Source: Acidobacteriota bacterium (GTDB taxonomy: Bacteria > Acidobacteriota > Blastocatellia > Pyrinomonadales > Pyrinomonadaceae). Taken from it: a DNA stretch of 35,547 bases. Shown one piece after another: positions 9,809-25,438 of the stretch; position 1 is the stretch's first letter; each line of letters starts with the position of its first letter. The notes beneath the pieces are model-generated. The model saw only the letters and a list, made by a program, of their open reading frames with translations, did no database searches and was not told the DNA's origin. Made by a program: the position numbers and the translations under genes. The stretch is from positions 1-35,547 of the forward strand of contig JAFAOW010000158.1 in the NCBI GenBank assembly GCA_019247455.1, read 5' to 3'.

Positions 9809-10141
9809 TTAGTTCGCCGGCTTCAGCGTCTTCATATATGCGGCTAACGCTTTCGCCTGATCTACGGTCATTCCCTTTGCCTCGAAACCCGGCATATACG
9901 GCGGCTTCTCGCCCTTCTTACCCTTAAGAATGATCTGGACGTGTTCGTCCTCCGGTTTGCTCGGGTCAAAGAATTTGCTCGCGGTTGGCGTATGGCATGC
10001 TGCACATTTGGCCTTAAAATCGTCAGCCGTGTCGCCGGCCGCTGCCACCGCCCCGATCATCTGCGGCCTGTAAGCCACGAGCATGATCATCGGAACTGCG
10101 AAAAGTACGATAGCTATCAATTTTACTTTATGTATTGTCAT
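9809..10141 (-). CDS. Monohaem class I cytochrome c
   Basis: 110 residues from the ATG at 10141, which has AAGGG about 8 bases upstream; a longer reading from 10219 has no such support. A signal or anchor helix spans about 6-24 (KLIAIVLFAVPMIMLVAY). One haem site, CAACH, follows at mid-protein, and the probable Met ligand lies in YMPGFEAKGM. The ending DQAKALAAYMKTLKP is the usual C-terminal helix of small class I cytochromes. It is probably a periplasmic one-electron shuttle between the multihaem proteins. A 203-base gap separates it from the upstream nonahaem gene, larger than elsewhere in the cluster. Confidence 0.9.
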   Translation of the reverse strand: MTIHKVKLIAIVLFAVPMIMLVAYRPQMIGAVAAAGDTADDFKAKCAACHTPTASKFFDPSKPEDEHVQIILKGKKGEKPPYMPGFEAKGMTVDQAKALAAYMKTLKPAN

Positions 10142-10344
10142 CACTTTGGCCCTTCGATAATTCCTTGGTCGAGCTCTTCCCGGACGTATCCGGTTGCTCC
10201 CGCCCAATAAGAGAAGCAACCTCCATGCCCTGCCCTATGCGCCGCTAAATGCAGAAAACAAAGGGAATTCGTCGTTGACGACCCCGCAATACTCAGTAAA
10301 ATCTCAGCTAACACCGCGAGAAATTCCACACGTTAAATTGTCAA

Positions 10345-11211
10345 TTAGAATGCGAAGGTCCTGCCTTCGTGACATCGCCTGCAATCTTTGAAGTCTGGTG
10401 GGCCGAAAGCACGCTTGTTGTTGTGGCACGCGGCACAACTTGTCCTGCCTGCCGGAGCAAAATGCATCGAAACCAAGGGTGCCGTCACCTGCCGTCCCCT
10501 CGCTGAGCCTGCTTGGACCAAATGGCAGCTCGAACAATTCATCGAGCCGCGCAAATGTTCTCGGTGGCTAAAATTTACGGAATAGGCCCTTGAAGAATCG
10601 GTAGCCCTTTGCGGCCGACCGAGCTGATGACACGTGGCGCACGATCCGATATTGCGCCCCCCTACTTCCGTCTGAGGCCCATGGCATTGAAAGCACGTCG
10701 TGTGCGCATAAGAACCCCCGGGCACTGAAAGGCCAGCTCCACCACGATTGGGCTTGTGACAAGTCGCGCAGCCGGTCTGCCTGATGTGCAGACCGTGATT
10801 GAACATAATGTTAAAGCTGCGCAACGGTGGGAACGGCTTGACCGACGTGGCTGTGTGACAGATCGTGCAGATCGGATTTTGATTGTCTGCAAACTGGGTC
10901 ACATGGCACCCGGCGCAAGGCATATGGCCGGGCATCTTCGGGCGGGTGAGGCCCACCTCACGCTTGTGACACAGCAGACAGGGCATTCGCGCGTGCTGCG
11001 CGCTGGAATGTTCAAATTTTGAAAAATCGAGATCCCCTTCAACCGGGACATATACTACATTCGGGGATGCCTCCGGCGCTTCCAGGCGAGCGTCATTCGG
11101 ATAGGCGCTCCAAACACAGGCAGCGGCGAGAATGAACGCGAGTGTGACATATAACTCGACACGCCGCGTTGCGGCGCTGCGGGGTCGAGGTTTGATGATC
11201 CTATTCCTCAT
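10345..11211 (-). CDS. Nonahaem cytochrome c
   Basis: 288 residues. A membrane-spanning signal sequence at about 18-37 (VELYVTLAFILAAACVWSAY) is followed by nine CXXCH sites: CLLCH, CAGCH, CTICH, CATCH, CFQCH, CATCH, CSSCH, CAACH and CRRCH. Distal His ligands are seen in recurring FxHxxH patterns such as FEHSSAQHARMPC, FNHGLHIRQTGC and FSHREHLRGSMNC, the pattern of cytochrome c3/c7-like folds with bis-His haems. It should be periplasmic or membrane-anchored, with a role as an electron wire. The ATG overlaps the stop of the upstream cytochrome gene by 4 bases, so the two are translationally coupled. Confidence 0.9.
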   Translation of the reverse strand: MRNRIIKPRPRSAATRRVELYVTLAFILAAACVWSAYPNDARLEAPEASPNVVYVPVEGDLDFSKFEHSSAQHARMPCLLCHKREVGLTRPKMPGHMPCAGCHVTQFADNQNPICTICHTATSVKPFPPLRSFNIMFNHGLHIRQTGCATCHKPNRGGAGLSVPGGSYAHTTCFQCHGPQTEVGGRNIGSCATCHQLGRPQRATDSSRAYSVNFSHREHLRGSMNCSSCHLVQAGSARGRQVTAPLVSMHFAPAGRTSCAACHNNKRAFGPPDFKDCRRCHEGRTFAF

Positions 11212-12398
11212 TTACCTGAGGCCGCTCTTGAGAGCGCCTGAGTATGGGACGCGGGGATTGGAAGCTTCCCGAATGCCACGTGACACTTCGCACATTCGAA
11301 CCGCGGATCTTCCTTTCGCTTATCGATCTCGTAGTTCAACGCCCCGCCATCATCAGAAGTCTTGGTCGCATGACACGATGCGCACGATGCTATCGTTACC
11401 TTCGTCGTATTCGGATCGGCCGTGTTCATCGTGTTTATGTTGTGACACGTGGCACACGCGACCTCCGCGTGGCTAAACCACTCGTGCCGGAACGTTCCGC
11501 TCGAATGCCGCGATTCCCAAGCCTGCATCATCACTTTGTCGTCAAAACCGATCGCCTTTGCGAGCTTCGGGTCGAAATCGGAGGGCGGCTGCGGCGGCCG
11601 CAGGCGATGGCATCCCGCGCAATTCTCCGGCGCGGGGAGGATGCCCGTGTCCGCCGAATGACAAGTGAAACATGAGGTATGACCGATCGGTGCTGATTTG
11701 AATGTCCCCTTTTTCAGCCAGAACGAGTCTCCGAGATTTACGGGAGGCTTTGTCAGATATTCCTCAGCTGCATCACCCTGCGGCTTCATGGTCTGATGGC
11801 AGACCGCGCAGCTTTCTTCCGCCATTGTGCGCGTAGATGCCGGAAGGTACGCTGCGTTCATCAGCCATGCCTTTGTCGAGTGAGTGCTCGCCGTCACGAT
11901 GTCCACATGTTTGTCATGCGGAAACGCAACTACCATGTCTGACGGTCCCGCTTTCTTACCCTTTGGCGATTGGTCGAAGATCTCTCTCGGATTCGGGAAG
12001 GGATGACGAGAGCTGTCCCTCGGACTCGGATTAGTATGGCAGATGGAGCAGATCTCGGGCCGTGCTCCGCGAAAGAACTGCTGCTGATGGCACTTCAGAC
12101 AAGACTCGTGATGGGGGTAGTCCGTTATGTCGGGGAATCCGTCTTTCGTAGACCGGACGGTTTTCCAGTTGGTTGACGGGAACGGGTTATGGCAGCTGCT
12201 GCAGGCCATCTGGTGAGCCCTCGTGGCGTGGTTAAACTCGGAATACTTAGAGGGTTTCGGTGCTGAAACTTTTCGGCCTGCGGGCTTGCGCCGCTGGGCG
12301 TCCACCCTCGAATTGACCATCATTAGTCCGCCCACCAAGAGGGAGAACACAATGACGGCCATTCCACGAACGGCGTTTTTTCCAAACGGAATGAACAT
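11208..12398 (-). CDS. Nonahaem cytochrome c, first gene of the cytochrome cluster
   Basis: 396 residues. The N-terminus has a signal or anchor helix (about 12-28, GMAVIVFSLLVGGLMMV) followed by a basic, Pro-rich linker. Nine CXXCH motifs are present: CSSCH, CLKCH, CSICH, CAVCH, CFTCH, CAGCH, CATCH, CASCH and CAKCH. His residues upstream of the sites (FNHATRAHQMAC, FPHDKH, FSHAEVAC) suggest bis-His ligation. It resembles the uncharacterised cytochrome c3-family proteins found beside NapC/NirT cytochromes in environmental bacteria. No clear ribosome binding site is seen at the ATG at 12398. Together with the next gene it gives 18 haems from one coupled pair. Confidence 0.9.
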   Translation of the reverse strand: MFIPFGKNAVRGMAVIVFSLLVGGLMMVNSRVDAQRRKPAGRKVSAPKPSKYSEFNHATRAHQMACSSCHNPFPSTNWKTVRSTKDGFPDITDYPHHESCLKCHQQQFFRGARPEICSICHTNPSPRDSSRHPFPNPREIFDQSPKGKKAGPSDMVVAFPHDKHVDIVTASTHSTKAWLMNAAYLPASTRTMAEESCAVCHQTMKPQGDAAEEYLTKPPVNLGDSFWLKKGTFKSAPIGHTSCFTCHSADTGILPAPENCAGCHRLRPPQPPSDFDPKLAKAIGFDDKVMMQAWESRHSSGTFRHEWFSHAEVACATCHNINTMNTADPNTTKVTIASCASCHATKTSDDGGALNYEIDKRKEDPRFECAKCHVAFGKLPIPASHTQALSRAASGK

Positions 12399-12606: not shown

Positions 12607-13848
12607 TCATTCTCTTGCAGATCGTAGAGTCTTACTACCAAAGAATAGGCAGACCGAACTGGCTAGGCAGGCGATCGGACACACCAGCAAGGCATATCGC
12701 AGCATCACCGGATTCTCTGTTGCCCCCAGACGGTCGCTTATCAAGCCGATCAGGTTTGAACCGATGAGATATGCAGCGATATTGACGGAAAAGAAATAAA
12801 CGGCGATGCCAAGTCCGCGAAGATTAACACCGGTGATCTCCGTTACATCGGCCGCAGCCGCACCGAGCCACGCAAGAGCAGCCGCGAGCAGAAAGAAATT
12901 TGAGGCTACCATCAGGTATACATTGTCGGTAAAGATGAGCAGCAGCCAGAATGGAACAGAGAAAATGCCAAGCAACCCTCCATAAAACATCCGGCCGCGT
13001 CCCGTTCGGTGAAACCGATCGGCGATCGCCCCGCCAAATAAGGTCGCGGGAATTCCCGCCGCGAGTGTTAAGGCTCCGCCCCAATATCCGATCGTCGGCA
13101 GATCGATCTGGTGCAGGCGCGAATAAAAGGTCGCGCCCCATATCGAAAGATTGTTGGTCGCAAGGCCGAGCATGGCATAGCCTAAACACAATAGAATGAA
13201 CGACCTATTAGTAACCAGAGCTTTCCAGTCGGTCCCGGAATAGTCCGTACCGACAGCACCGGACGTCCTTCTCACCGGTTCGCGAAGGAAAAATGCCAGC
13301 AGACCAAAAAGAAGTCCAGGAAAACCGATCAACATAAACGCAGTTCGCCATCCATACTGGCTTAGGCTGCCCCCGAGCAAGGCCGCGAGCCCGGCGCCTA
13401 TCGCAATGCCCATCGAATAAATACTAGTGACGGTTGCCCGGCGTAACGGCGGAAAGTAGTCGGAGAGCAGCGAGATCGCCGCCGGACCGAGTGTCGCTTC
13501 GCCCACACCGACCATCACGCGGCAGGCAAACAGCGTCCAGAAATCATTCGCAAAAGCCGTCAGGCCCGAAAACAGGCTCCATACAATAACACCGATCGCG
13601 ATCATCTTGATCCGCGAACCTCGATCAGCGAAACGACCGAATGGAATACCAAGGGCGGTGTAAAAAATGACGAACGAAGTAGTCCCCAGCAATGCAAGCT
13701 GAGTATCCGAAAACGCCATCTCCTTTTTGATCAGTGGAAAAAGGATGTAGATGATGGTCCGGTCGAGAAAATTCAGAACGTAGATCAGCATCAGGAGCGC
13801 AAGCGCGTACCACGAGTATGCAGGTGTGCGTTCGAGATCCTCGGTCAT
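12607..13848 (-). CDS. MFS transporter (Spinster/anion:cation symporter-like)
   Basis: 413 residues from the ATG at 13848, only 6 bases after the stop of the MaoC gene; a longer reading from 13917 would overlap that gene. About 12 membrane helices are present. Helix 1 reads ALALLMLIYVLNFLDRTIIY, with the DR pair typical of this branch, and the motif A loop is GRFADRGSRIKM. The helix 4/5 region has VGVGEATLGPAAISLLSDYF, also found in Spinster-like permeases. Such transporters move lipids, sphingoid compounds or organic anions. As the last gene of the hydrolase/ligase operon it could export the product or import a precursor; the direction cannot be told. Confidence 0.88.
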   Translation of the reverse strand: MTEDLERTPAYSWYALALLMLIYVLNFLDRTIIYILFPLIKKEMAFSDTQLALLGTTSFVIFYTALGIPFGRFADRGSRIKMIAIGVIVWSLFSGLTAFANDFWTLFACRVMVGVGEATLGPAAISLLSDYFPPLRRATVTSIYSMGIAIGAGLAALLGGSLSQYGWRTAFMLIGFPGLLFGLLAFFLREPVRRTSGAVGTDYSGTDWKALVTNRSFILLCLGYAMLGLATNNLSIWGATFYSRLHQIDLPTIGYWGGALTLAAGIPATLFGGAIADRFHRTGRGRMFYGGLLGIFSVPFWLLLIFTDNVYLMVASNFFLLAAALAWLGAAAADVTEITGVNLRGLGIAVYFFSVNIAAYLIGSNLIGLISDRLGATENPVMLRYALLVCPIACLASSVCLFFGSKTLRSARE

Positions 13849-13853
13849 GATTC

Positions 13854-14252
13854 TTAGGGCAAGACCATCACGGCGGCCTCGCCTTTGACAAGCGTGACGC
13901 CGTGCTGATTGGTGCAAATGGTTTCGAGCGTTACGATGCCTTTGTCCTCGCGAATGTTGGTGACCTTCGCGGCGGTGGTCACGGTATCGTCGATGAAAAC
14001 AGGTGCGGTGAATTGCATGGTCTGCGTAAGATACACGATCTTACGGTCTTTGAACTCATTTCCGAGGACGGCTGAGATGAATGCCCCGCTCAACATCCCG
14101 TGAGCAATGCGCTTGCCGAAACGCGTCGTCTTCGCAAATTCCTCGTCGAGATGGATCGGGTTGTGATCGCCCGAAACCTCTGCGAATTTGCGTATTATCT
14201 CGTCGGTCACGAGCCGCGACGTCGAAAATGTATCCCCGATCTTAATGTCCAT
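13854..14252 (-). CDS. MaoC-like (R)-specific enoyl-CoA hydratase
   Basis: 132 residues from the ATG at 14252; a TTG 12 bases upstream is also possible. Single hotdog MaoC dehydratase domain with the catalytic hydratase signature FAEVSGDHNPIHLDEEFAKT (Asp29, His34), followed by RIAHGML. The family hydrates trans-2-enoyl-CoA to (R)-3-hydroxyacyl-CoA, or the reverse, feeding PHA, lipid or polyketide-like pathways. The start overlaps the stop of the exported hydrolase gene, so the two are translationally coupled. Its presence beside an acyl-CoA ligase implies that CoA or ACP thioesters are intermediates of this operon. Confidence 0.9.
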   Translation of the reverse strand: MDIKIGDTFSTSRLVTDEIIRKFAEVSGDHNPIHLDEEFAKTTRFGKRIAHGMLSGAFISAVLGNEFKDRKIVYLTQTMQFTAPVFIDDTVTTAAKVTNIREDKGIVTLETICTNQHGVTLVKGEAAVMVLP

Positions 14253-14253
14253 A

Positions 14254-15123
14254 TTATTTAGCAAGAAAAGTTAGGACCGCCTTGTTAAAATCCGCCGCTT
14301 TCTCAAACTGCGGCACGTGGCCGCACCCATCGAACACGAGCAATTCTGATCCCGCAATTCCTTTGTTAAAGGTATAGGCGTCGGCAACAGGAAGCAGGCC
14401 GTCCTGTTTGCCCCAGATGATAAGTGTCTGCTTTTTGATCTCGCCGAGGCGGTCGTTCAGGAAATCTTCCTTTCGCTTGATCGAATCGATAAGGCTGTTG
14501 ATCGTCCCGCCGTCATTTGCCGTCACGCGGCCGGTCATAAATTGATCGACAAGTGTCTCGTTATTTTGCCAAGCCGGAGTGGCGAATATTTTCTTCATAT
14601 TTGCACGGATCTCATCGCGCGTAGAGTTATTCAGTTGATACAGGTCCGCCTCGTTCAAGTTTCCGGGAACGATCCCGGCGGCATCCGCAAGCACGATCTT
14701 TTGAACACGTCCGGGATATTTGATCGCCATCAAACCCGCGACCCAACCGCCCATTGAGTTTCCGACAAGCGAGGCCGTTTCGATCTTGAGTTCCGACATA
14801 AATTTGTCGAGAAAATCGGCGTACGTACCGACACGGTATTTCAACATCGGCTTCTCGGACTTTCCGAATCCGATCTGATCGAGGGCGATGACGTGATAAT
14901 TTTGGGCGAGCGGGGCTGTGTTCGTGGCCCAATTTGCAAGGCTTCCGCCAAGGCCGTGCAGCAAAATTACGGTCGGCCTTGTCGCGTCCCCGGCCTCGAC
15001 ATAATTGATCTTGGCGCCAAAGACGACGACTGTCTTTTCCTGCAATCCCTGCGAAAAGGCGTTCACGGAAAGCGTAAATACTATCGAAAAAAGGACGATC
15101 AGCTTCTTGTGATCTTTATTCAT
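14254..15123 (-). CDS. Exported alpha/beta hydrolase
   Basis: 289 residues from the ATG at 15123, which has GGAGAGG 5 bases upstream; this overlaps the ligase gene by 8 bases. A signal peptide (KKLIVLFSIVFTLSVNAFSQ) predicts export to the periplasm. The fold shows the oxyanion loop HGLGGS, the nucleophile elbow GNSMGG (Ser123), the acid in WGKQDGLLP and the His in GCGHVPQFE. It resembles esterases and C-C hydrolases of the MhpC/BphD branch; the substrate is unknown. A periplasmic hydrolase beside a TonB-dependent receptor suggests that an imported ester or amide is cleaved after crossing the outer membrane. Confidence 0.9.
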   Translation of the reverse strand: MNKDHKKLIVLFSIVFTLSVNAFSQGLQEKTVVVFGAKINYVEAGDATRPTVILLHGLGGSLANWATNTAPLAQNYHVIALDQIGFGKSEKPMLKYRVGTYADFLDKFMSELKIETASLVGNSMGGWVAGLMAIKYPGRVQKIVLADAAGIVPGNLNEADLYQLNNSTRDEIRANMKKIFATPAWQNNETLVDQFMTGRVTANDGGTINSLIDSIKRKEDFLNDRLGEIKKQTLIIWGKQDGLLPVADAYTFNKGIAGSELLVFDGCGHVPQFEKAADFNKAVLTFLAK

Positions 15124-16783
15124 AAAGCCTCTCCAAAATTTCCTCATAATTTGCTGCGACGACGTTTCGTTTGAGTTTCATCGTCGGCGTGACCTCGTCC
15201 CGCATAAGAGAGAAATCCTCTTCCAACACGACAAATTTCTTGATCTGCTCGGATGACGACACGCGTCGGTTCGTTTTCGCAACCACCTCGTCAACCCGCA
15301 TTTGTATCTCCTCGGGACACATGTTCGCCGCCTCGTCTGCGTTTATGGTGATGAGGGCAACGCAATAATTGCGGCCATCGCCATGGACGAAGCAATGGCT
15401 GATCAGGTGCGATTCCTTCACGAGATTCTCGACAAGTGCGGGAGCGACATTCTTGCCAGACGAAAGGACAATGATCTCCTTCTTGCGGCCAGTGATCTTG
15501 AGAAACCCATCTTCGTCGAGCTCACCCAGGTCGCCCGTTTTCAGCCAACCGTCATTGGTGAACATCTCAGCCGTCTCTGCCGGCGCCTTGTAATAGCCCG
15601 AGAACATCATTGGCGAGCGCACCTCGATCTCACCATCCGACGCAATGCGAACTTCAGTCATCGGCATCGGCTTCCCGACCGTTCCGAATTTATGCTGCTC
15701 GACCGTGTTGAATGCAACAGCGATATTCTCCGTCAATCCGTACGCCTGCAGGATCGGTAAACCGCGCTCCTCGTAGAAGGCGGCGATCTCGGCGGGCAGC
15801 GGCGCACCGCCGGACGTGAGCAGCCGAACGTTTCCGCCGAATGCGTCCTTTAGGGCCTGCGGTCCCGCGTTTTCGCCGTGTTGGGCGACAACGGCGGCAT
15901 GGATCTTCTCAAAAAATCGTGGTAGGGACGCAAAGACGGTCGGCTTTACATCGAGCATGTACGTGTAGAGTTTCGACAGATCGTCAACAAAATACGCCGA
16001 CGCGCCGTTATAGAGACGGTTGTAGATCCCCGAGATCCTTTCCGCGACATGACAGCCTGGCAGGTACGATAGCGACGTATCCGAATCGAAGATCGGCACC
16101 GACCTGCGAAGCGACTCCACACTGTTAAGTATGTACGCGTGCGAAAGCATGGCGGCTTTTGGCTGACCGGTAGTGCCCGACGTATAGACCATGATGGCCG
16201 TATCGTCTGGCTTAGCGGACCGGCCGATCCGATCCAGGTCAGGGAGGTGTTTCTCCCGCTGCTGCCGGCCGTACTTAAGTACTTGACTCAATGGGCGTAC
16301 AGGGAGCTCAGCTACATCCAAAAAGATAGAATTTTTTTTTCGCACGAGCTCAACGGAGACGTCATCGATCGCGCTGATAATGAATATCTCCTTGAGCTTT
16401 GAATAAGGCTCGTTTGTGTCGGAGATAGTCTGCAACTGGCCTTCATTCTCGACAACAAGGAACTCCGCATCGGAATGCTCGACTATAAAATGCGCCTGCT
16501 CCGGTGAGCTGGTTGGATAGATGCCTACTCCCACGCCGCCAGCAGATATCGCTGCAACATCGACGATCGTCCATTCCGGAATATTGCCGGCCAGGATTGC
16601 GACCTTGCCGCCATTTGTGAGCCCTTTGGCCAGCAGTGCACAGCCCAGATCGAGCACTTTGTTTTCAAAGCTCGTCCACGTCTGCGGGACCCAGGCTTCC
16701 CCCGAGCTTGTGTAGAAGACAGGTCTATCACCGTATTTCTCACACTGAGCACGAAAGAGGCTGTAGATATTAGGGAATTCCAT
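15116..16783 (-). CDS. AMP-dependent acyl-CoA synthetase (long-chain FadD/FAA-like)
   Basis: 555 residues with all ANL-superfamily motifs: the P-loop YTSGTTGQPKAAMLSH (about 200-215), YGLTEN, GWLKTGDLGELDEDGFLKIT with the hinge GRKKEIIVLSSGKNVAP, and the C-terminal catalytic Lys region TPTMKLKRNV. The order and length fit the long-chain acyl-CoA synthetase branch with linker-type residues. It activates a carboxylic acid with ATP, then makes a CoA (or carrier-protein) thioester in the cytoplasm. It starts 3 bases after the KAS III-like gene. An A9 run in the coding strand (16332-16340) encodes part of VRKKNS and is a possible slippage site. Confidence 0.92.
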   Translation of the reverse strand: MEFPNIYSLFRAQCEKYGDRPVFYTSSGEAWVPQTWTSFENKVLDLGCALLAKGLTNGGKVAILAGNIPEWTIVDVAAISAGGVGVGIYPTSSPEQAHFIVEHSDAEFLVVENEGQLQTISDTNEPYSKLKEIFIISAIDDVSVELVRKKNSIFLDVAELPVRPLSQVLKYGRQQREKHLPDLDRIGRSAKPDDTAIMVYTSGTTGQPKAAMLSHAYILNSVESLRRSVPIFDSDTSLSYLPGCHVAERISGIYNRLYNGASAYFVDDLSKLYTYMLDVKPTVFASLPRFFEKIHAAVVAQHGENAGPQALKDAFGGNVRLLTSGGAPLPAEIAAFYEERGLPILQAYGLTENIAVAFNTVEQHKFGTVGKPMPMTEVRIASDGEIEVRSPMMFSGYYKAPAETAEMFTNDGWLKTGDLGELDEDGFLKITGRKKEIIVLSSGKNVAPALVENLVKESHLISHCFVHGDGRNYCVALITINADEAANMCPEEIQMRVDEVVAKTNRRVSSSEQIKKFVVLEEDFSLMRDEVTPTMKLKRNVVAANYEEILERLYE

Positions 16784-16786
16784 CCG

Positions 16787-17776
16787 TTAGAACTTCATAG
16801 CGAGGCACGCCATGTTTAGACCGCCGCCCGACGCGCATAGGACGATCGTGTTGCCGCGTGCGATCTTGCCAGCATGTAACGCGTCATGAAAGACCATCGG
16901 GATACAAGCAGAGCCGGTGTAGCCCCACTTCTCCATAACGGTGTGCGTCTTAGATTCCGGGATCTTCATCAGCGACATCACCTCTCTGATCGTCGACAGG
17001 TTTACCTGCGTCCAAAGAAATATATCGACATCGTCGAGCGAGATGGCGGCCTTTTTCAGCACGTCATCTACGATCTTCGGCCATCCGTTGATGTTGACCT
17101 CCGGCGGATATTTTTTTGCGAAGCGGAGCTTGTTCGTCTTGTTTTCGTCGAGCACAGCATGCGTGATGGGCATCTTTGTCCCGCCTGCGAAAATGCCCAT
17201 AAAATCGCTATAGCTGCCATCGGCGACCAGCTTTGACGCAAGGAAGTGCGGTTCGTTCTCGACAGCCCGCATGACGAAAGCACCGGCTCCGTCGGCAAAT
17301 AGCGTCGAGGTCTTTTTATCTTTCCAGTCAACAAATTTGCTCATCGCATAGCAGCCGATGACAAGCACGTTGCGATAGGTCGCGTCGGCGATGATGTACT
17401 TGTACGCTGCATCGAGCGTCGTCACGAAACCCGCACAGGCGGCGTTGATATCGTATGTCCCCGCGTTTACCGCACCGATGCGATCTTGAACGATGACGGA
17501 CGTCGCAGGAGAAATATACTCAGGCGTGTCGGTTGCGAGGAGGATCAGGTCGACGTCCTTAGCATCGACACCTGCATCGGCCAGAGCCGCCCTCGCCGCG
17601 TTTATTGCTAGATCTGCGGCGCTCTCGTCTTCGGCGGCAATGCGTCGCTCCTTGATGCCGACAACGGAGGATACAAATTCATCGATGTCGGTCCCGAGAT
17701 TTGCACTTAGCTCGGCGTTGGAAACTACACGCTCGGGCACGTAAACGCCGGTACCGATGATCCGCGCATCCTTCAT
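16787..17776 (-). CDS. KAS III (FabH)-like protein lacking the catalytic His and Asn
   Basis: 329 residues, thiolase fold. It opens MKDARIIGTGVYVPERVVSN and has the nucleophile region YDINAACAGF with Cys114, equal to Cys112 of E. coli FabH. The C-terminal half aligns clearly with FabH (WTQVNLSTIREV, then WGYTGSACIPMVFHDAL and CASGGGLNMACLAM). Where FabH has HQAN the protein has TQVN (Thr256 for His244), and where FabH has GNTSAAS it has GYTGSAC (Tyr286 for Asn274). Without these two residues decarboxylative Claisen condensation is unlikely; acyl transfer or thioester hydrolysis by the Cys is more plausible, as in acyltransferase members of the KAS III family. Its ATG overlaps the upstream hydrolase stop (ATGA). 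Confidence 0.88.
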   Translation of the reverse strand: MKDARIIGTGVYVPERVVSNAELSANLGTDIDEFVSSVVGIKERRIAAEDESAADLAINAARAALADAGVDAKDVDLILLATDTPEYISPATSVIVQDRIGAVNAGTYDINAACAGFVTTLDAAYKYIIADATYRNVLVIGCYAMSKFVDWKDKKTSTLFADGAGAFVMRAVENEPHFLASKLVADGSYSDFMGIFAGGTKMPITHAVLDENKTNKLRFAKKYPPEVNINGWPKIVDDVLKKAAISLDDVDIFLWTQVNLSTIREVMSLMKIPESKTHTVMEKWGYTGSACIPMVFHDALHAGKIARGNTIVLCASGGGLNMACLAMKF

Positions 17777-18567
17777 TTCGTCAAAAACTCCACGACAGCC
17801 GCGTTAAACTCACGTGCACGCTCGACAAAGAACATGTGAGACCCGCCCGCGATCACCTGCAGTGTACTCGATGGAATGGCGGCCGCAAGATTTTCGCTGT
17901 TCTGAGTCGGTACGACGGTGTCGGCGTCTCCGGTCAATACAAGTGTAGGAATGACGATCGAGCCGACTTTGTTTGTAGTATCAAAACTCATTGCCGATGT
18001 AAGCTGCGTCATATATACATCCTCAGGTACGACATTAGCCTCGCGAAGCTCACAAAACTCGTCAACGATCTCGGGCGAGGAGTCAGAGAATTCTTTTGTG
18101 AACGCCATCGACAGATATTGCCTGATACGATCAGCCGAATTTAGTCCCTGCACCGACGCGAAGGCCATCAAGACTTCAGGAGCGGGGGCAACATGACCGG
18201 CTCCGCCGAAGCTCGTACATGCAAGCACAAGCCTCTCTACCTTGTCAGGAAATTGCAGGGCAAACTCCTGCGCGACAAATCCGCCAAATGATATGCCGAG
18301 CACATTCGCTGGTGCCTCGCCGACATGATCGAGCAGCGCGGCCACATCCGTGGCGATCTGACCGATCGTCCCCGACGGACCATTGTTTATCGAGCGGGAC
18401 ACACCGCGCGGATCGAAGGTTATGACGCGGAACCGTTCCGCAAACGCGGGCAGTTGATGCTTCCAACTCCACGCTCCCGATGCAAAACCGGGCAAAAGAA
18501 CAAGCAGTTCGCCCTCACCGTGCGTCTCGTAAACCAAGTCACAGCCATCTATCGAGAATGTTGGCAT
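17773..18567 (-). CDS. Cytoplasmic alpha/beta hydrolase
   Basis: 264 residues from the ATG at 18567 (MPTFSIDGCDLVYETHGEG); an in-frame start at 18624 would overlap the hairpin described separately, so it is less likely. No signal peptide. The fold shows LLPGFASGAWSW as oxyanion loop, FDPRGVSRS, the nucleophile elbow GISFGG (Ser93), the acid in TGDADTVVP and the His in GGSHMFFVE. This is the 3-oxoadipate enol-lactonase/esterase-like branch. It is the first gene after the TonB-dependent receptor and is translationally coupled to the KAS III-like gene. It may release an acyl group from the imported compound or act as a thioesterase. Confidence 0.88.
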   Translation of the reverse strand: MPTFSIDGCDLVYETHGEGELLVLLPGFASGAWSWKHQLPAFAERFRVITFDPRGVSRSINNGPSGTIGQIATDVAALLDHVGEAPANVLGISFGGFVAQEFALQFPDKVERLVLACTSFGGAGHVAPAPEVLMAFASVQGLNSADRIRQYLSMAFTKEFSDSSPEIVDEFCELREANVVPEDVYMTQLTSAMSFDTTNKVGSIVIPTLVLTGDADTVVPTQNSENLAAAIPSSTLQVIAGGSHMFFVERAREFNAAVVEFLTK

Positions 18568-18581
18568 GATCGTAACCTGTG

Positions 18582-18614
18582 AGAAAACGAGGGCCGGCAG
18601 GTAAGCACCGGCCC
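18582..18614 (-). terminator. Hairpin with U-tract between receptor and hydrolase operon
   Basis: On the minus strand a GGGCCGG/CCGGCCC stem of 7 bases with a 10-base loop (18591-18597 with 18608-18614) is followed by TCGTTTTCTC. It lies after the receptor stop (18655) and 14 bases before the hydrolase ATG. It looks like an intrinsic terminator or attenuator that lowers downstream expression. Confidence 0.65.
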
Positions 18615-18654
18615 CCGAAAACATGCCCCCGAAGCGGGCGCCATCGACAGATGG

Positions 18655-21600
18655 CTAGAAGGTGACCTTGAACGCCAACTGGATCACCCGCGGACCGGTC
18701 GCGGCTCGATCGATCTTACCAAAACTGGCGCCCGTGATGACGTTGTTGTTCGGGTTTGCATAGTTCACCCAGTTGAAGGCGTTAAAGAACTCCGTCCGGA
18801 ATTCGCCACGCACTTGCTCGGTGATCGGGATCAGTTTGATGAACGAGATATCAACGTTCTTCTGCCCCGGTCCCCAGAAAGCATTCCTCGGCGTGTTGCC
18901 GAACGGATGCGTCGGGTCGAATGCTGCATTGGTTGGTGTCGCCGTCCCGCTGCTGCACGCAACCGTGGGACACGACACGGAAAATGCTCCGGTGTTGAAG
19001 TATCCACCCGTTCGCTGACTCATGCTGCCGGAGGTGTAGATACTTCCGGCAAAGGCAGCGTTATAGTTAGCGCGCTGTACGGTCTGGGCTCCGTTCTCCG
19101 AAACTATCGAGAACGGCAGGCCCGACTGGAACACCGTCACGGTTGCGATCTCCCAGTTATGGAGTACCGCCTTTGCGAACGAACCGCTACCCCATTTTGG
19201 CAAGGCATAAACACCGCTCAGCACAAAACGCTGCCTCCGGTTGAAGTCGGACGGACCGTAATTGGTTCGCCAGTTGACCTGGTCGCCGGAGACGTTTTGC
19301 AATTCGTTTACGCCCGTCCCGGAATAGTAGTCAAAAGACTTTCCATAGGTGTAGGCCGCAAGAAACTGCAGCCCGTTGGAAAAGCGCTTGCTGAGACTCG
19401 CCTGGATCGAGTCGTATTTCGACTCGCCGGTCGTCTGGATCTGCTGCACACCGCCTGTCGCGTTCTTATTGGCCGAGATCGCGGTAGGTGCCCAACGCGT
19501 CGAGAATGTATTCGTCGCCGCATTATAGATCGGCTGGTTCAACGTGACCATTTGCAGCAGGCTGCGGCCGCGGTTGCCGACGTATCCGACATCGACAACG
19601 AAGTTATCACCGACCTCCCACTGAACGCCCGCGTTGAACTGATGCACCATCGGCGTTTTGAGCTGGGGATCGACGAAGACACCCGCGACCGGCACGCCGA
19701 CCGTCGGAAAGGCCAGACCCGACAGTGGGGAGGGAATCGTCGCAGCTGTCGGGAAAGCCGACGGCAGCGGCATGTTCACAAACGGATTTGCGAACGTCTG
19801 CGTGAATCCCGGCAATCCAACTCCCAAAGCGAAGTAGGGGAAGTTGAAGAGCTGGGAGTTCGCAAAGCGAGTCGAGATCCTGTCGTAATAGAGCCCGTAT
19901 CCACCGCGAATCACAATGTGCTGCGTCGCTTGGTACGCGAGGCCGATCCGGGGAGCAAAATTGTTCTTATCGGTGGGAACGAGCGTGTTCGCCACCTTTG
20001 GCACGTTTGCAAGGGACCCGTTGCCAGCCTGGACGATACCGTTTGGCGGCTGTGCCGGAGTGGCGGTCGTTCCCACGACGACGGAATCGGGAAGGAGATT
20101 TACGAGCCTTCCCATCGCATCGCTGGGTAATCCGTAGTAGTCGTAACGCAGTCCGAGGTTGAGGGTAAGCTTAGGCGTGACCTTCCAATCGTCCTGAATG
20201 AAGAAATTCATATCTTTCACCTTGAACGATCGGTCGAAAACACCGGACCCCAACAATGATACGGTCGTCGCGAAGCTTCCTCCCGCCAGGAATGCCGCAA
20301 AGCTCGGGAAGTTGATCTGCCCGCGCGAGAACGCATTGAAGTAAAACTTCACGCTCGACTGCCGGTACTCGCCCCCAAAGCGGATTCGGTGATTGCCCTC
20401 GGTCCAGGACAGCGTGTCGCCGAAGGTATGCGCGCTGATCCTCGACGACTGATCGGAGAGCGGGGCACTGCCAAAGAAGAATTGCGAATCTGCACCAAGA
20501 ACGCGGATCGTCGGGGCACCGGGATAAAGGCCTCCCAACGGACTGGTGATGCCCAGGCTCGATGCCGAAAACGGCTCCTGCGGAACGCTCGTCACGAGCA
20601 GCCGGCTGAAGCCATAGCGGGCCTGATTCACGAGCTTTGGCGAGAAGACGTAAGTGTCCGTCACTGAGTACAACCGCTGGTTGATCTTTAGGTTCCCGCC
20701 AAAGCCGACGAGCTGATTCACCCCGTTGCCGAGACCGGCGAAATTGTAATTCGCCTGAAATGTAGGATTATTTGCCAGGTAAAATTTGGCAGACAGGCTG
20801 TGCTTCTGCGAGAAGAGGATATCGCCGTTCATGTTGCCCTGGTTTTCTTTGAACGTCGACTCTCCCGACTGCGGCACGGTCACGGCCGCGAATGGTGTTG
20901 CGGTCGAGGCAAGGCCTGACGAGGGGATCGCGTACTGGCCGTTGGGGAGCTTGGCGTTAAGGATCGCCACGGAAACGGCATTCGGCACGATGCCGAAGGT
21001 CGTCTGCAGAGCCGAGGCCGACCGGTTGTCATCGCGAAGTCCGGCCGGAACGACCGGGGAGGTCAGACTGTTGGTCAGACTAACGCCATTTCGCTCCTGA
21101 GTATGCTGGAACGATCCGAAGAAGAACACTTTGTCGCGAACCAAATGGCCGCCAAGAGCTCCGCCGAACTGGTTTCGCGTCGCAACTGGTCGGGCGATGC
21201 CTCGGGCTTTAATAAAAGGATCGTTCGCGTTGAGAGCTTTGTTCCTTAGAAACTCGTAGGCGCTCCCGTGAAAGTCGTTCGATCCGCTGCGGGTGATCGC
21301 CTCGATGGACCCGCCGGCATTTCGACCGTACGACGCGTCATAGAGCGACGTCTGAACGATGAATTCCTGCAGGCTATCGGTCGCCGGCACCGCGATATTG
21401 GGCGTCGAATTGGTTCCGATGGAGTTTGCATCGACGCCGTTGATGCGGACGTTGTTGCTGGTCGTCCGCTGTCCGTTTACACTGATCGTCGCGTCGCCCC
21501 GTCCTAGATCGGTCGAATTCGTGACCGAACTTTGCGCACCAGGCGATAGCGCAAGCAATTGCTGGAAATTCCTTGACGGCAGAGGCAGTTGACGGATCGT

Positions 21601-22008
21601 TTCGCCGGAGACCGTACGCCCGTTCTGGGAGGTCTCCAGCTGCAGAGTCGGAGCGGCGATATTTACAGTCGCGATGTCACCGCCGACGCTGAGGTTAACG
21701 TCTGCAGGTGTGATCTGGCTAACATTCACGACCGCGTTCAGACTCACCGGCTTGAACCCCTGTCCGGCAACCGAAACGGTGTAATTCCCGGCGGGCAGCA
21801 AGGTGAATGAGTAGATACCATCTTCATTCGTCGTTGTCTCACGCGTAAAGTTGGTCGCGGTATTCGTGACTTTTACCGCGGCACCCGTGACCACCGCACC
21901 GTTCGGATCCGTTACCGTGCCGCTAAGGCCTCCGGTCCCGCCCTGGGCAATGAGAGTTGCTGCTGACAACAGCAGCAGACTCAAAACGGCTATCGATCTA
22001 TGTAACAT
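18655..22008 (-). CDS. Oar-like TonB-dependent receptor
   Basis: 1117 residues. A signal peptide (LSLLLLSAATLIAQ) is followed by a carboxypeptidase-regulatory-like domain (about 26-105, GGLSGTVTDPNGAVVTGAAV and LLPAGNYTVSVAGQGF), the plug (about 120-240, with LPLPSRNFQQLLALSPG, NGQRTTSNNVRINGVDANS and YGRNAGGSIEAITRSGSNDF), and a long beta-barrel ending in an aromatic-terminated strand (IQLAFKVTF). This is the Oar/CarboxypepD_reg receptor type that is very abundant in Acidobacteriota. It imports a large or scarce ligand across the outer membrane with TonB energy. GGAGG lies 8 bases before the ATG, and a TetR-type palindrome lies just upstream. It probably feeds the hydrolase operon that follows. 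Confidence 0.93.
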   Translation of the reverse strand: MLHRSIAVLSLLLLSAATLIAQGGTGGLSGTVTDPNGAVVTGAAVKVTNTATNFTRETTTNEDGIYSFTLLPAGNYTVSVAGQGFKPVSLNAVVNVSQITPADVNLSVGGDIATVNIAAPTLQLETSQNGRTVSGETIRQLPLPSRNFQQLLALSPGAQSSVTNSTDLGRGDATISVNGQRTTSNNVRINGVDANSIGTNSTPNIAVPATDSLQEFIVQTSLYDASYGRNAGGSIEAITRSGSNDFHGSAYEFLRNKALNANDPFIKARGIARPVATRNQFGGALGGHLVRDKVFFFGSFQHTQERNGVSLTNSLTSPVVPAGLRDDNRSASALQTTFGIVPNAVSVAILNAKLPNGQYAIPSSGLASTATPFAAVTVPQSGESTFKENQGNMNGDILFSQKHSLSAKFYLANNPTFQANYNFAGLGNGVNQLVGFGGNLKINQRLYSVTDTYVFSPKLVNQARYGFSRLLVTSVPQEPFSASSLGITSPLGGLYPGAPTIRVLGADSQFFFGSAPLSDQSSRISAHTFGDTLSWTEGNHRIRFGGEYRQSSVKFYFNAFSRGQINFPSFAAFLAGGSFATTVSLLGSGVFDRSFKVKDMNFFIQDDWKVTPKLTLNLGLRYDYYGLPSDAMGRLVNLLPDSVVVGTTATPAQPPNGIVQAGNGSLANVPKVANTLVPTDKNNFAPRIGLAYQATQHIVIRGGYGLYYDRISTRFANSQLFNFPYFALGVGLPGFTQTFANPFVNMPLPSAFPTAATIPSPLSGLAFPTVGVPVAGVFVDPQLKTPMVHQFNAGVQWEVGDNFVVDVGYVGNRGRSLLQMVTLNQPIYNAATNTFSTRWAPTAISANKNATGGVQQIQTTGESKYDSIQASLSKRFSNGLQFLAAYTYGKSFDYYSGTGVNELQNVSGDQVNWRTNYGPSDFNRRQRFVLSGVYALPKWGSGSFAKAVLHNWEIATVTVFQSGLPFSIVSENGAQTVQRANYNAAFAGSIYTSGSMSQRTGGYFNTGAFSVSCPTVACSSGTATPTNAAFDPTHPFGNTPRNAFWGPGQKNVDISFIKLIPITEQVRGEFRTEFFNAFNWVNYANPNNNVITGASFGKIDRAATGPRVIQLAFKVTF

Positions 22009-22024
22009 TTCTTTGCCTCCAAAT

Positions 22025-22044
22025 AAAAATGAACGTTCGTTTTT
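22025..22044. promoter_or_regulatory. TetR-type operator before the receptor gene
   Basis: A 20-base near-palindrome centred between 22034 and 22035: core GAACGTTC with A-rich and T-rich flanks, only one symmetric pair (22030/22039) mismatched. The receptor ATG is about 26 bases away. A close copy, centred between 22766 and 22767, is in front of the TetR gene, which suggests that this is the operator of the neighbouring regulator. Confidence 0.72.
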
Positions 22045-22087
22045 TTTCCTCCAACACGGGGAGGTCGATTCTTAAGTTCTTCAAGGC

Positions 22088-22753
22088 CTATCCGGCTGCC
22101 TTATTCGCTGTTTTCTTAAAGCGTGCCAGGCTCGCCTCACTCAGCGTGCCATAAGCGAAGATCTTTGTAATATGGTTGAGCGCCTGCTCGTCCGTAAGTC
22201 CCATGTGGTGGTTACCGCCAAACAACTTCTCCACAAGAAAGTAGTTGAAGAACTGCATGTACGCCGCCGTGAATGCCGGCGCGGGCTCGACCCCGACCCG
22301 CAGATCGCCGCGCTTTTCAGCATCCCGGAATCGGCGTCCGAATATTTTTCTGAACCGATCGCTGACCCCGTCGAACATTTTCCTAAAATGCTGATTTTGG
22401 AACTCGAGCACATCGATGTACATGAGCAGCCAAAAGTCCGAATGATCATCTACCAGCCGTCCGACATTCGAGCCGAGCTTGCGTAAGCTCGCGGGCTCCA
22501 TCGGTTCGTCGATCTCGTCAAAGATCGCCCGCAGCTCCATGTCGATCACGCCAAGATATCGGTCAATTATCGACTCAAAGATCGCGTCCTTCGTCGCGTA
22601 GTAATTATAAAGATTACCTAACGAAACGCCCGCGCGCCTTGCGATGTCACGCATCGACGTCGCATGAAAACCGTGTTTGATGAACAGTTCTCTTGCAGCG
22701 TCCTCGATTATTGCCATCCTTTCTTGAATGGCCTCGTCGCTTAGCTTAGGCAT
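22088..22753 (-). CDS. TetR family transcriptional regulator
   Basis: 221 residues. The N-terminal helix-turn-helix is textbook: IIEDAARELFIKHGFHATSM, then RDIARRAGVSLGNLYNYYAT and KDAIFESII (about 14-63). The C-terminal ligand-binding part is all helical and unassigned. TetR proteins usually repress their own gene and neighbours until a small ligand binds. Two near-identical palindromes flank it, one directly upstream of its start and one before the receptor gene, supporting autoregulation and control of the receptor operon. Given the acyl-CoA ligase and MaoC genes downstream, an acyl-CoA or the imported lipid is a reasonable ligand, but this is inference. Confidence 0.93.
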   Translation of the reverse strand: MPKLSDEAIQERMAIIEDAARELFIKHGFHATSMRDIARRAGVSLGNLYNYYATKDAIFESIIDRYLGVIDMELRAIFDEIDEPMEPASLRKLGSNVGRLVDDHSDFWLLMYIDVLEFQNQHFRKMFDGVSDRFRKIFGRRFRDAEKRGDLRVGVEPAPAFTAAYMQFFNYFLVEKLFGGNHHMGLTDEQALNHITKIFAYGTLSEASLARFKKTANKAAG

Positions 22754-22756: not shown

Positions 22757-22776
22757 AAAAACGAACGCTCGTATTT
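22757..22776. promoter_or_regulatory. TetR-type operator before the TetR gene
   Basis: A near-palindrome with core ACGAACGCTCGT, flanked by A-rich and T-rich sequence, starting 4 bases upstream of the TetR ATG (22753). Aligned with the site at 22025-22044 the two give the shared pattern AAAAAYGAACGYTCGTWTTT. Its place suggests autorepression. Confidence 0.72.
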
Positions 22777-23050
22777 GTATACGGGGTCGCTACCCGATTG
22801 TCAAGCACAAAATTGGATGTTTTCCTCTGCTAGGCCGTAGGCAGGCGGGGGTAGCGATCGTTCCGCGGACCGGAGTACGTGGCGACGCTAAAATTCGGCG
22901 TCGGGGTTTATTTAAATTAATTTTTCAGGTGAGGTATGATGAGCGTACACAAATTCATCTTTTTGTCGCACTTTTCGAGAAATCGGTATCGATACAAAGA
23001 CAGTGGCCCGCAGCGGGGGGTCCCATATCGAAATAGCCGACAAAGCCTCT
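22777..23050. other. Divergent intergenic region, TetR/FixJ-type genes
   Basis: About 270 bases between the TetR operator and the response regulator. A 9-base inverted repeat (TCGCTACCC at 22787-22795, GGGTAGCGA at 22849-22857) with a 53-base loop and an AT-rich stretch (22907-22928) are the only structures seen. A short reading frame after GTGAGG near 22935 overlaps the regulator gene and is not believed. Confidence 0.4.
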
Positions 23051-23683
23051 ATGAGAATGGACGAAAACGCCCCGATCGTTTACGTCGTCGATGACGACAG
23101 AGCCATTCGCGAGTCGCTTGAAAGCCTGCTTCGCTCGGTCGGGTTCCGCGTTTCGGTTTTTGCCTCAGGGGCGGAATTCCTTGAGACGAAGCGGGAGGAT
23201 AGCCCGAGCTGTTTGATCCTCGACGTGCGTCTTCCCGGTTTGGGTGGGCTTGATCTACAGAGCGAGATCAGCCGCTCCGGCATTGAGGTCCCGGTTATCT
23301 TCATCACCGGACACGGCGACATTCCGATGACGGTCAGGGCCATGAAGGCAGGCGCGATAGAATTTCTTACCAAACCCTTCCGTGAACAGGATCTGCTTGA
23401 CGCTATAGCTCAGGCGATCCAGCGCGACGGCGACGACCGACGGGCGCGCGGCGAGATCGCCGAACTGCAAACACGATTTGAAACATTAACCCCACGTGAG
23501 CGCGAAGTGATGCAATGGGTTGTCGCCGGCCTACTCAACAAACAGATCGCAAATCGCCTGGGCGTAAGCGAAATTACCGTCAAAACTCACCGAAGCCAAG
23601 TCGTCCAAAAAATGAAAGCTGATTCGGTCGCCGACCTCGTGCGCATGTCGGAACGGCTCAATTTGCCAACCGCAAAAGTTTAA
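23051..23683 (+). CDS. FixJ/NarL-type response regulator (REC + LuxR HTH)
   Basis: 210 residues from the ATG at 23051; an upstream GTG at 23003 would extend it, and neither has a strong ribosome binding site. The receiver (about 8-120) has the acidic pocket VVDDD, the phosphorylation site Asp58 in CLILDVRLPG, the Thr in FITGHGD and the Lys in FLTKPF. The C-terminal LuxR-type helix-turn-helix reads LTPREREVMQWVVAGLLNKQ, IANRLGVSEITVKTHRSQV. This is the FixJ group, normally paired with a FixL-like kinase. The HisKA sequence of the kinase at 28869 is of the kind found with such regulators, so it is the likely partner. It diverges from the TetR gene. Confidence 0.92.
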   Translation: MRMDENAPIVYVVDDDRAIRESLESLLRSVGFRVSVFASGAEFLETKREDSPSCLILDVRLPGLGGLDLQSEISRSGIEVPVIFITGHGDIPMTVRAMKAGAIEFLTKPFREQDLLDAIAQAIQRDGDDRRARGEIAELQTRFETLTPREREVMQWVVAGLLNKQIANRLGVSEITVKTHRSQVVQKMKADSVADLVRMSERLNLPTAKV

Positions 23684-23687
23684 CCAA

Positions 23688-23705
23688 CCTATACTTAGGT
23701 ATAGG
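23688..23705. promoter_or_regulatory. Perfect palindrome before the stand-alone receiver gene
   Basis: CCTATAC and GTATAGG pair perfectly around TTAG. It lies just after the FixJ-type gene and about 60 bases before the receiver gene. There is no U-tract, so it is more likely a binding site (possibly for the FixJ-type regulator) than a terminator. Confidence 0.4.
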
Positions 23706-23763
23706 AATTCCTTCCTAACGCATAATAGTTTTTCCCCATCCGGCCCTGATAACCTTGCTGCAA

Positions 23764-24168
23764 ATGACGGACGGGATAGAAGAATCCAAAGGAAAGTCTA
23801 CAGCATTCGTGGCAGTCGTTGACGACGACGAATCAATGCGGGAGGCCACCGAAAGCCTACTCAAATCGGTCGGTTTCCGAACGGCGATCTTCGCTTCGGC
23901 GCACGATTTCCTGAAGGCTGGGGGAGAACTGAAACCGGATTGCTTGATCCTCGACGTGCGAATGCCGGGTATGAGCGGAATCGAATTGCAGAAAAGACTT
24001 ATCGCCGAAAATCGGGACATATCGATCGTGTTCCTCTCGGCACACAGCGAAAGGGGATCGAGGGAAAAAGCGCTAGCGGCCGGGGCGATAGATTTTTTAG
24101 CAAAGCCATTTAACGAAGACTCATTGCTCAAGGCAGTAAAGGTAGCGATAGAAAGAAAAGAGAACTGA
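23764..24168 (+). CDS. Stand-alone receiver-domain response regulator
   Basis: 134 residues from the ATG at 23764 (a TTG 9 bases earlier is possible). It has only a receiver: VVDDDESMREATESLLKSVG, phospho-site Asp64 in CLILDVRMPG, FLSAHS and FLAKPF. It aligns along its length with the receiver of the preceding FixJ-type regulator (shared ATESLL/LESLL, SVGFR, FAS, CLILDVR, AGAI, KPF) but stops where that protein begins its DNA-binding domain. It thus looks like a duplicated and truncated copy, and may act as a phosphate sink or competitor for the kinase. The sigma-54 activator gene follows after 11 bases, so the two are likely cotranscribed. Confidence 0.9.
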   Translation: MTDGIEESKGKSTAFVAVVDDDESMREATESLLKSVGFRTAIFASAHDFLKAGGELKPDCLILDVRMPGMSGIELQKRLIAENRDISIVFLSAHSERGSREKALAAGAIDFLAKPFNEDSLLKAVKVAIERKEN

Positions 24169-24179
24169 GGAGATAGATC

Positions 24180-25274: not shown

Positions 25275-25381
25275 AGAAATCTTTCATGAAGGTTGGCTGC
25301 TCAAACGAGCCCGCCCGGTCACCGCTTTATCAGATGTCCGATAGATCAGCAACGGAAAGACCACAACCTTTAACGTCCGCT

Positions 25382-25396
25382 AGCATTGGGAATGCT
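25382..25396. promoter_or_regulatory. Inverted repeat, possible activator binding site
   Basis: AGCATT and AATGCT form a perfect 6-base inverted repeat around GGG, about 50 bases upstream of the candidate -24 box. Distance and symmetry fit an enhancer for a Fis-type helix-turn-helix such as that of the neighbouring sigma-54 activator. It is a short element and could occur by chance. Confidence 0.4.
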
Positions 25397-25438
25397 CTCA
25401 AATGAAGCCGTTCGTCCACCCGAGTTTAATATGCCTGG

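Follow-up and report, generated by a model that had tools for sequence, protein, structure and literature searches.

A TetR-headed locus of Acidobacteriota with an altered KAS III-like protein and its possible role in the scavenging of 3-hydroxyacyl esters

Closest described systems and the altered KAS III-like protein

In the ketoacyl-acyl carrier protein (ACP) synthase III (KAS III) FabH, the catalytic His and Asn serve malonyl decarboxylation and enolate binding. Here we analyze a KAS III-like protein in which both residues are replaced, together with the TetR-headed eight-gene locus that encodes it in a 35,547-nt stretch of acidobacterial DNA (hereafter the window) that makes up the full length of contig C244 in a draft genome of 3.28 Mb. 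The KAS III fold has been diverted from decarboxylative condensation in ChlB3 and CerJ, as it probably has been here; according to excerpts of PMC9573744, however, these have a Cys-His-Asp triad and belong to antibiotic clusters, whereas the protein considered here has Cys-Thr-Tyr and is found beside genes of probable uptake. The position of the FabH-type His is occupied by Thr; in ChlB3, the His and Asp are His296 and Asp301. In Haloferax mediterranei, PhaJ1 passes (R)-3-hydroxyacyl-coenzyme A (CoA) from polyhydroxyalkanoate (PHA) to β-oxidation, and the PhaJ dyad, Asp31/His36, has the same Asp-x(4)-His spacing as that of the MaoC protein of the window, but storage there is intracellular, whereas uptake from outside is suggested here (passages of PMC4823750). 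Extracellular polyhydroxybutyrate (PHB) use by Paucimonas lemoignei is paralleled by a PhaZ7-like secreted enzyme in sister loci, although no such gene was found in the window genome by a Lipase_2 search. The passages seen of the review PMC11893044 contain no mention of uptake, transport, acyl-CoA synthetase, or KAS III. Searches of the open-access literature, subscription papers being outside their scope, found no description of this gene combination, of a conserved Cys-Thr-Tyr subfamily, or of a cross-phylum association of such a subfamily with CoA ligases. The families of the individual components have all been described.

The protein shares with FabH the fold, the length, the active-site Cys, and the two Pfam domains of the family (PF08545 and PF08541), but only Cys114 remains of the Cys-His-Asn triad. 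In an alignment with FabH of the same genome, which encodes a separate ordinary FabH, and of its relatives, Cys114 is retained in ACAG, whereas TQVN stands against HQAN and GYTGSAC against GNTSSAS, the catalytic His thus being replaced by Thr256 and the Asn by Tyr286; Asp83 and His278 are nearly invariant. In an alignment of 18 rows, one of them a sequence from a Chloroflexota plasmid, Cys114 is kept and Thr256 and Tyr286 are invariant; these last two are present in 92 of 98 open reading frames (ORFs) of the cluster. Of the six exceptions, one is an ordinary FabH and the other five are paralogues that have Glu-Cys-Leu/Ile and, where Tyr would stand, His. Asp83 is common to the same 92 ORFs and His278 to 90. 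Since the patterns used to scan named genomes contained Tyr286 and the TDT motif (Asp83), the conservation of these two residues is partly built in for the scanned loci; Thr256 was not in the patterns, and neither it nor the set of KAS-positive genomes described below is affected by this selection.

The AlphaFold model (mean predicted local distance difference test score 95.9) has the FabH fold. The structures that it matches best are those of FabH and BioZ, and the TM-scores by query length are 0.86-0.94 among the 50 PDB chains listed, which include FabH, BioZ, and PqsD. The sequence is closer to FabH than to the PqsC or HMG-CoA synthase entries, and FabH entries are the top matches of a profile of the altered family. 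The general KAS III subfamily model NF006829 is passed (272.7 vs 249), the only NCBIfam model over its cut-off among the best 25 matches for each window protein, whereas the score for the fabH model TIGR00747 is below the cut-off (240 vs 292). In a quick tree, supported by the SH-like approximate likelihood ratio test (SH-aLRT) only and built with FabH_L030 excluded as a wrong ORF, the node uniting the 92 altered KAS rows has a value of 92; it was not starred, and long branches were flagged. In Chloroflexota and Thorarchaeota, these regions also encode another KAS III-like paralogue (L107:15377 and L123:45, and further upstream in L108, L113, and L120; L numbers denote the loci or neighborhoods compared), in which Asp83, Cys114, Thr256, and Tyr286 correspond to Glu, Cys, Leu/Ile, and His.

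Because the Cys is kept and the decarboxylation His and Asn are replaced, decarboxylative condensation is unlikely and formation of an acyl-Cys is possible; to judge by the residues, malonyl-ACP condensation is most likely absent from the reactions of this enzyme. The original prediction of an unusual KAS III is borne out in this respect. The Chloroflexota plasmid member is annotated as 'ketoacyl-ACP synthase III' but is devoid of the residues which such a reaction requires, so that the names given to these genes may be misleading in the phyla scanned.

Conservation of the locus and its predicted TetR operators

Eight minus-strand ORFs span positions 12607-22753 of the window, from tetR (starting at 22753) to the MFS gene (ending at 12607). 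Their Pfam series is TetR_N; an OMP_b-brl_4 receptor with CarboxypepD_reg and plug domains; Abhydrolase_1; ACP_syn_III; AMP-binding; Abhydrolase_1; MaoC; and MFS_1, which agrees with the strand, extent, and families originally proposed. The spacing is 79 bases between the TetR and receptor genes and 30 bases between the receptor and hydrolase 1 genes; hydrolase 1 and KAS overlap by four bases, and KAS and the ligase are three bases apart. Depending on the choice of the start codon, the ligase and hydrolase 2 genes overlap by about 8 to 32 bases. The hydrolase 2-MaoC junction lies between an 11-base overlap and a 1-base gap, and the MaoC-MFS gap is five bases if the MFS gene starts with ATG at 13848 instead of the listed TTG at 13917.

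Sixty genomes including the window's own (G numbers) were searched, 37 of its genus and 23 from outside. The altered KAS III-like gene has a patchy distribution, occurring in 18 of the 60 (7/37 within the genus and 11/23 outside). All eight genes stand in the same order on one contig in five genomes of the genus (the window's, G023, G027, G015, and G012), are split across two contigs in G004, and are represented by six of the eight in G008, which consists of short contigs. Since this order recurs in KAS-bearing genomes of the genus, the arrangement is not due to chance. Ten of the 11 KAS-positive genomes outside the genus have a same-strand ligase near KAS, G049 being the exception. The window MaoC and MFS proteins gave no tblastn match in the stretches taken from these 11 genomes; the named Acidobacteriota contigs L052, L055, L058, L059, and L067 retain both genes. 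The unit is conserved in the genus and its core in the class, so the neighborhood comparison that had been named as capable of overturning the original prediction found the core staying together in relatives.

The scan of named genomes matched at least 585 stretches, at least 566 of them encoding some relative, and the best 80 loci were kept. After removal of seven that lie on the same contigs as L033, L034, L035, L036, L040, L042, and L044, the remaining 73, the window, L033-L049, and L050 make up 92 neighborhoods; their ORFs were called with simple scripts and no gene finder, and genes may be missed in loci of high G+C content. The best 80 loci carry the labels Acidobacteriota, Gemmatimonadota, Myxococcota, Chloroflexota, Bdellovibrionota, Calditrichota, Ignavibacteria, Bacteroidetes, Chlorobi-type, KSB1, Elusimicrobia, Acetothermia, and Thorarchaeota; L066 is from the cultured relative Pyrinomonas methylaliphatogenes. 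Among the matches kept, the nearest with names are Pyrinomonadaceae and 'Chloracidobacterium sp.' metagenome-assembled genomes, so the window probably comes from an acidobacterium close to Pyrinomonadaceae. Of the 92 neighborhoods, 82 have an acyl-CoA ligase gene on the same strand no more than about 4 kb from KAS, several of the other ten being cut by contig ends, and 60 have a same-strand α/β hydrolase. Transport genes within 9.5 kb encode TonB-type receptors (34 neighborhoods), MFS transporters (17), SSF symporters (15), branched-chain-type ATP-binding cassette (ABC) permeases (11), and ABC binding proteins (9); in 16 there is an outer-membrane-like protein that has no Pfam match and is barrel-like by eye, and 22 loci, tested over a slightly smaller range, contain none of these transporter types. 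ABC systems with binding proteins and SSF symporters are importers. As the transport genes differ by phylum (TonB-type receptor, SSF symporter, or ABC importer) and importers are among them, uptake is favored, and by transfer from these relatives it is the likely direction in the window. Plug and barrel domains were found in the window receptor. A second receptor of the same kind is encoded at 25551-28811, and since such receptors are common in the group, the nearness of one alone says little.

Two putative operators and a sigma-70-like promoter accompany the TetR gene (Table 1); a consensus promoter scan omits this promoter, as its rule requires T at the last -10 position. The fitted operator pattern forms a pair at the locus in all seven KAS-bearing genomes of the genus, and 14 of its 15 matches are at the locus, compared with one match of a reversed control pattern. 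The remaining operator-like match (G008:C58, L145) has none of the eight genes nearby and was regarded as a chance hit. In G004 and G008, which are independent of the pattern derivation, tetR and the receptor gene are on contigs separate from the other genes, and the sites flank them there. Thus, as expected of a TetR operon, predicted palindromic operators lie at both the regulator's own promoter and that of its target.

With a looser pattern, a match before or behind tetR was found in 18 of 19 acidobacterial loci with TetR upstream of KAS (L037 has none) and in eight of the nine acidobacterial TetR loci outside the motif derivation. Among them are loci with a Lip8-type lipase (L041, L063, L067, and L072; Lip8, Lip41, Lip35, and Lip32 are clusters of lipase-like proteins) and with PhaC-like genes (L044, L063, and L072). 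One Elusimicrobia locus (L121) has a match at the start codon, and none of the 11 TetR loci from Myxococcota and Chloroflexota has any. Chloracidobacterium-like genomes (L047-L049) contain no match genome-wide to the pattern tried; there, KAS lies between two CoA ligases in a cluster headed by a PhaR-like regulator, with no TetR. Because operator matches cluster at the loci in the genus but not in every family, dedicated TetR control of the locus is a well-supported prediction for the window's genus and only in part supported outside it. Together with the gene order kept in relatives, the operator pairs uphold the proposal of a single TetR-headed locus.

Proposed pathway, candidate substrate, and alternatives

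We place about half of our confidence in the following reading: the locus would be a single regulon for scavenging an external ester, most likely (R)-3-hydroxyalkanoate esters, that is, PHA oligomers or comparable 3-hydroxyacyl esters, because sister loci add a PhaZ7-like secreted depolymerase or a PHA synthase to the same core. TetR would repress from the two operators, one within its own promoter region and the other ahead of the receptor gene, until released by a compound of the pathway. The ester or oligomer would enter through the receptor, the free acid would be released by hydrolase 2 on the periplasmic side and by hydrolase 1 inside the cytoplasm, and the ligase would convert it to the CoA thioester; uptake and CoA activation of the substrate are likely. 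MaoC would then turn (R)-3-hydroxyacyl-CoA into enoyl-CoA for β-oxidation. The KAS III-like enzyme could form an acyl-Cys intermediate, followed by cleavage of 3-ketoacyl-CoA with CoA or by movement of the acyl group to another acceptor.

Only tentatively do we extend this to other lineages, where a KAS III fold may have been turned catabolic (cleavage of 3-ketoacyl-CoA with CoA, or acyl transfer from an imported 3-hydroxyacyl oligomer to CoA) beside a CoA ligase, in an ester-scavenging module of Acidobacteriota, Gemmatimonadota, Myxococcota, Chloroflexota, Ignavibacteria-type bacteria, and Thorarchaeota that acts on PHA or a similar natural polyester. If true, a core of hydrolase, altered KAS III, and CoA ligase combined with exchangeable uptake systems would mean widespread use of environmental 3-hydroxyacyl polyesters by lineages for many of which metagenomes are the main source of knowledge.

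For the lipases of secreted type encoded by the G042 (L037) and G051 (L042) clusters, the best solved-structure match is the PHB depolymerase PhaZ7 (2e-17, 66.6 bits, vs 0.001, 21 bits, for LipA-type in L037; 5e-9, 38 bits, vs 2e-7, 33 bits, in L042). The HSMG lipase box occurs in all five aligned Lip8 proteins, and AHSMG is the box given for PhaZ7 in the available part of PMC5171882; by best similarity and xHSMG box, the lipases of L037 and L042 are predicted members of the PhaZ7 family. Lip8, Lip41, or Lip35 lipases lie within 9.5 kb in 21 of the 92 loci (26 counting Lip32): ten of Acidobacteriota, one of Gemmatimonadota, one of Chloroflexus, and nine of Myxococcota. The Lip8-type lipase L098:7399-8565 of Myxococcota, on the opposite strand, is 62% identical to that of acidobacterial L037. 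Lip32 (Corallococcus, Archangium) was rejected as a lipase, the L126 protein having an AWSKG stretch by eye and no Pfam or solved-structure match, and it was for this reason left out of the PhaZ7 argument. In L067, the eight genes of the window are joined by small extra ORFs and by a secreted lipase gene that separates the receptor gene from that of hydrolase 1, and operator matches lie on both sides of TetR. Close variants are L063, which lacks MaoC, has PhaC-like genes on the opposite strand, and shows an operator match behind TetR, and L065, whose contig ends early; all three fall inside the window's 13-row clade (SH-aLRT 97).

PhaC-like genes are present in five of the 92 loci, in four on the KAS strand; the one scanned, from L044, is near the class III cut-off (355 vs 365 bits). 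PhaR-like genes occur in six loci, in three on the KAS strand, the PHB_acc domain having been tested in L048 only. At the genome level, Lipase_2 (E < 1e-15) was found in 8/18 KAS-positive and 0/42 KAS-negative genomes, four of the eight having it within about 1.2 kb of KAS, and PhaC_N in 7/18 and 1/42. Fisher tests, uncorrected for kinship, give 1.7e-5 and 5e-4, respectively, for the 60 genomes and 3e-4 and 0.009 for the 23 outside the genus. The MaoC protein has the PF01575 domain and a PhaJ-like dyad in GDHNPIH. Given the PhaZ7-like lipases, the PhaC- and PhaR-like genes, the genome co-occurrence, and this dyad, (R)-3-hydroxyacyl esters such as PHA oligomers are a moderately likely substrate.

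Several observations weigh against the scavenging of 3-hydroxyacyl esters under dedicated control. At E 0.001, neither Lipase_2 nor PhaC_N has a match in the window genome, so that the PHA link comes from relatives only; PhaC_N was found in none of the 37 genomes of the genus. Likeness to PhaZ7 is no proof that PHB is the specific substrate, and the comparison with solved structures covered just three lipase-like proteins, of which Lip32 of L126 gave no match at all. In the nine Myxococcota loci the lipase, of the Lip8 type, is on the strand opposite to the KAS cluster. The Fisher values are optimistic since the genomes are related (three are Chloracidobacterium-like), and the Lipase_2 cut-off was picked after seeing the list, 25/60 genomes having some match. 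The ligase, being of the long-chain type, does not stand out as one for 3-hydroxybutyrate. A thiolase role of the KAS III-like protein is not forced, because the genome carries two thiolases over the Pfam cut-off and three neighborhoods hold an extra one; lack of a thiolase is thereby ruled out as the reason for this gene. SDR (short-chain dehydrogenase/reductase) and MaoC as strict alternatives are suggestive and not significant (both in 1/92, p 0.10). Finally, a shorter operator pattern gave 14 matches in seven of 11 genomes of other families, against four for the reversed control, and only four of the 14 are on the KAS contig (one in G058, two in G037, one in G038), the other ten being elsewhere.

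General scavenging of lipids or fatty-acyl esters (acylglycerol, wax, or phospholipid), with nearby PHA genes merely storing excess carbon, is possible, although we are doubtful of it. It would agree with the long-chain ligase, for which FadD11 is the best NCBIfam model at a score far under its cut-off (302 vs 950), and with hydrolase 2, which is nearest to 6i8w (2e-35) and generic hydrolases, though it also matches the PHB depolymerase 8ynv (3.6e-18). The Lipase_2 family includes true lipases too. However, PhaZ7 leads LipA-type by a wide margin in L037, if only by a small one in L042, ordinary fatty acids need no (R)-specific hydratase or FabG-like SDR, and several clusters contain PhaC- and PhaR-like genes. 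Of the options originally proposed, degradation of an imported acyl ester is favored; for a polycyclic lipid there is only the match of hydrolase 2 to HsaD-type hydrolases, far under the family cut-off (144 vs 400 bits). The proposed set of functions fared well insofar as one locus, kept together in relatives, combines the outer-membrane receptor with both hydrolases, the enzyme of CoA activation, and the MaoC hydratase.

Biosynthesis and export of an acylated metabolite, the other option raised by the original prediction, now appears unlikely. The MFS gene would encode the exporter and the KAS III-like protein a CerJ/ChlB3-like acyltransferase, a type known for KAS III-like proteins (part of PMC9573744) and compatible with the kept Cys and the lost decarboxylation residues. 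Yet the triad of ChlB3 and CerJ is Cys-His-Asp and the FabH-type His position is occupied by Thr here, the unit has no other plainly biosynthetic gene, and homologous loci encode secreted lipases in several lineages and, in other phyla, importers (ABC with binding proteins, SSF) beside the KAS-ligase pair. Still somewhat less probable is an unusual condensation by which the KAS III-like protein would make 3-ketoacyl chains and feed PHA synthesis via FabG: the overall fold is that of FabH, and PhaC-like genes and a same-strand FabG-like SDR (14/92 neighborhoods; the two SDRs tested are FabG-like) are found nearby, but His and Asn are replaced in nearly all cluster members and no PhaC_N match was found in the 37 genomes of the genus.

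OleA needs His and Asn. An Ole-type pathway to a β-lactone or olefin, in which the KAS III-like protein would be the counterpart of OleA, the α/β hydrolase of OleB, the AMP ligase of OleC, and, in other phyla, an SDR of OleD, finds these four enzyme classes in many loci but is very improbable, since 3row/3s1z, which we take to be OleA (the match listing names them only 3-oxoacyl-[ACP] synthase III), match KAS at 6e-16 vs 9e-57 for the best FabH, the tested SDRs are FabG-like, and transporters point to uptake; on match strengths and for lack of an SDR in the window unit, a simple OleABCD pathway was rejected.

Features of the locus and adjoining genes

Table 1. Predicted features of the TetR-headed locus, in window coordinates
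Feature	Position	Strand	Description	Basis
TetR promoter	22776..22804	-	sigma-70-like, TTGACA-17-TATACA, ahead of TetR	read from sequence
Operator copy 1 (putative)	22758..22774	-	ATACGAGCGTTCGTTTT, palindromic, between -10 and TetR start codon	motif search
TetR-family regulator	22088..22753	-	221 amino acids (aa), first gene of unit	PF00440; operators on both sides
Operator copy 2 (putative)	22026..22042	-	AAACGAACGTTCATTTT, between TetR and receptor gene	motif search
TonB-dependent-receptor-like outer-membrane protein	18655..22008	-	1117 aa, N-terminal CarboxypepD_reg	PF25183, PF13620, PF00593, PF07715
α/β hydrolase 1	17773..18624	-	283 aa, PcaD/esterase-like (best solved-structure matches: esterases 8v16/6eb3); by eye, no signal peptide	PF00561
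KAS III-like protein	16787..17776	-	329 aa, Cys114-Thr256-Tyr286 replacing Cys-His-Asn	PF08545, PF08541; alignment, AlphaFold model
AMP-forming acyl-CoA ligase	15116..16783	-	555 aa, long-chain/FadD11 type	PF00501, PF23562
α/β hydrolase 2	14254..15147	-	297 aa, signal-like N-terminal stretch (by eye only), probably periplasmic	PF00561
MaoC-type hydratase	13854..14264	-	136 aa, Asp-x(4)-His dyad like that of (R)-specific enoyl-CoA hydratases	PF01575; GDHNPIH in translation
MFS transporter	12607..13848	-	413 aa counted from ATG	PF07690

Three adjoining cytochrome-type genes, the closest of which is 208 bases downstream of the unit, lie on the minus strand at 8065-12398: one NapC/NirT-like, one with Cytochrome_C7, and one with Cytochrome_C7 and MtrC-like domain matches. 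The plus strand at 23003-32333 contains two response-regulator-like ORFs, a sigma-54 activator, a sensor kinase bearing Reg_prop repeats, and the second receptor of the OMP_b-brl_4 family. Genes for sigma-54 regulators and sensor kinases are near KAS also in L046 and L068 and, by cluster, in L057 and L061. A glycosyl hydrolase family 92 gene is at 2518-5640 on the plus strand.

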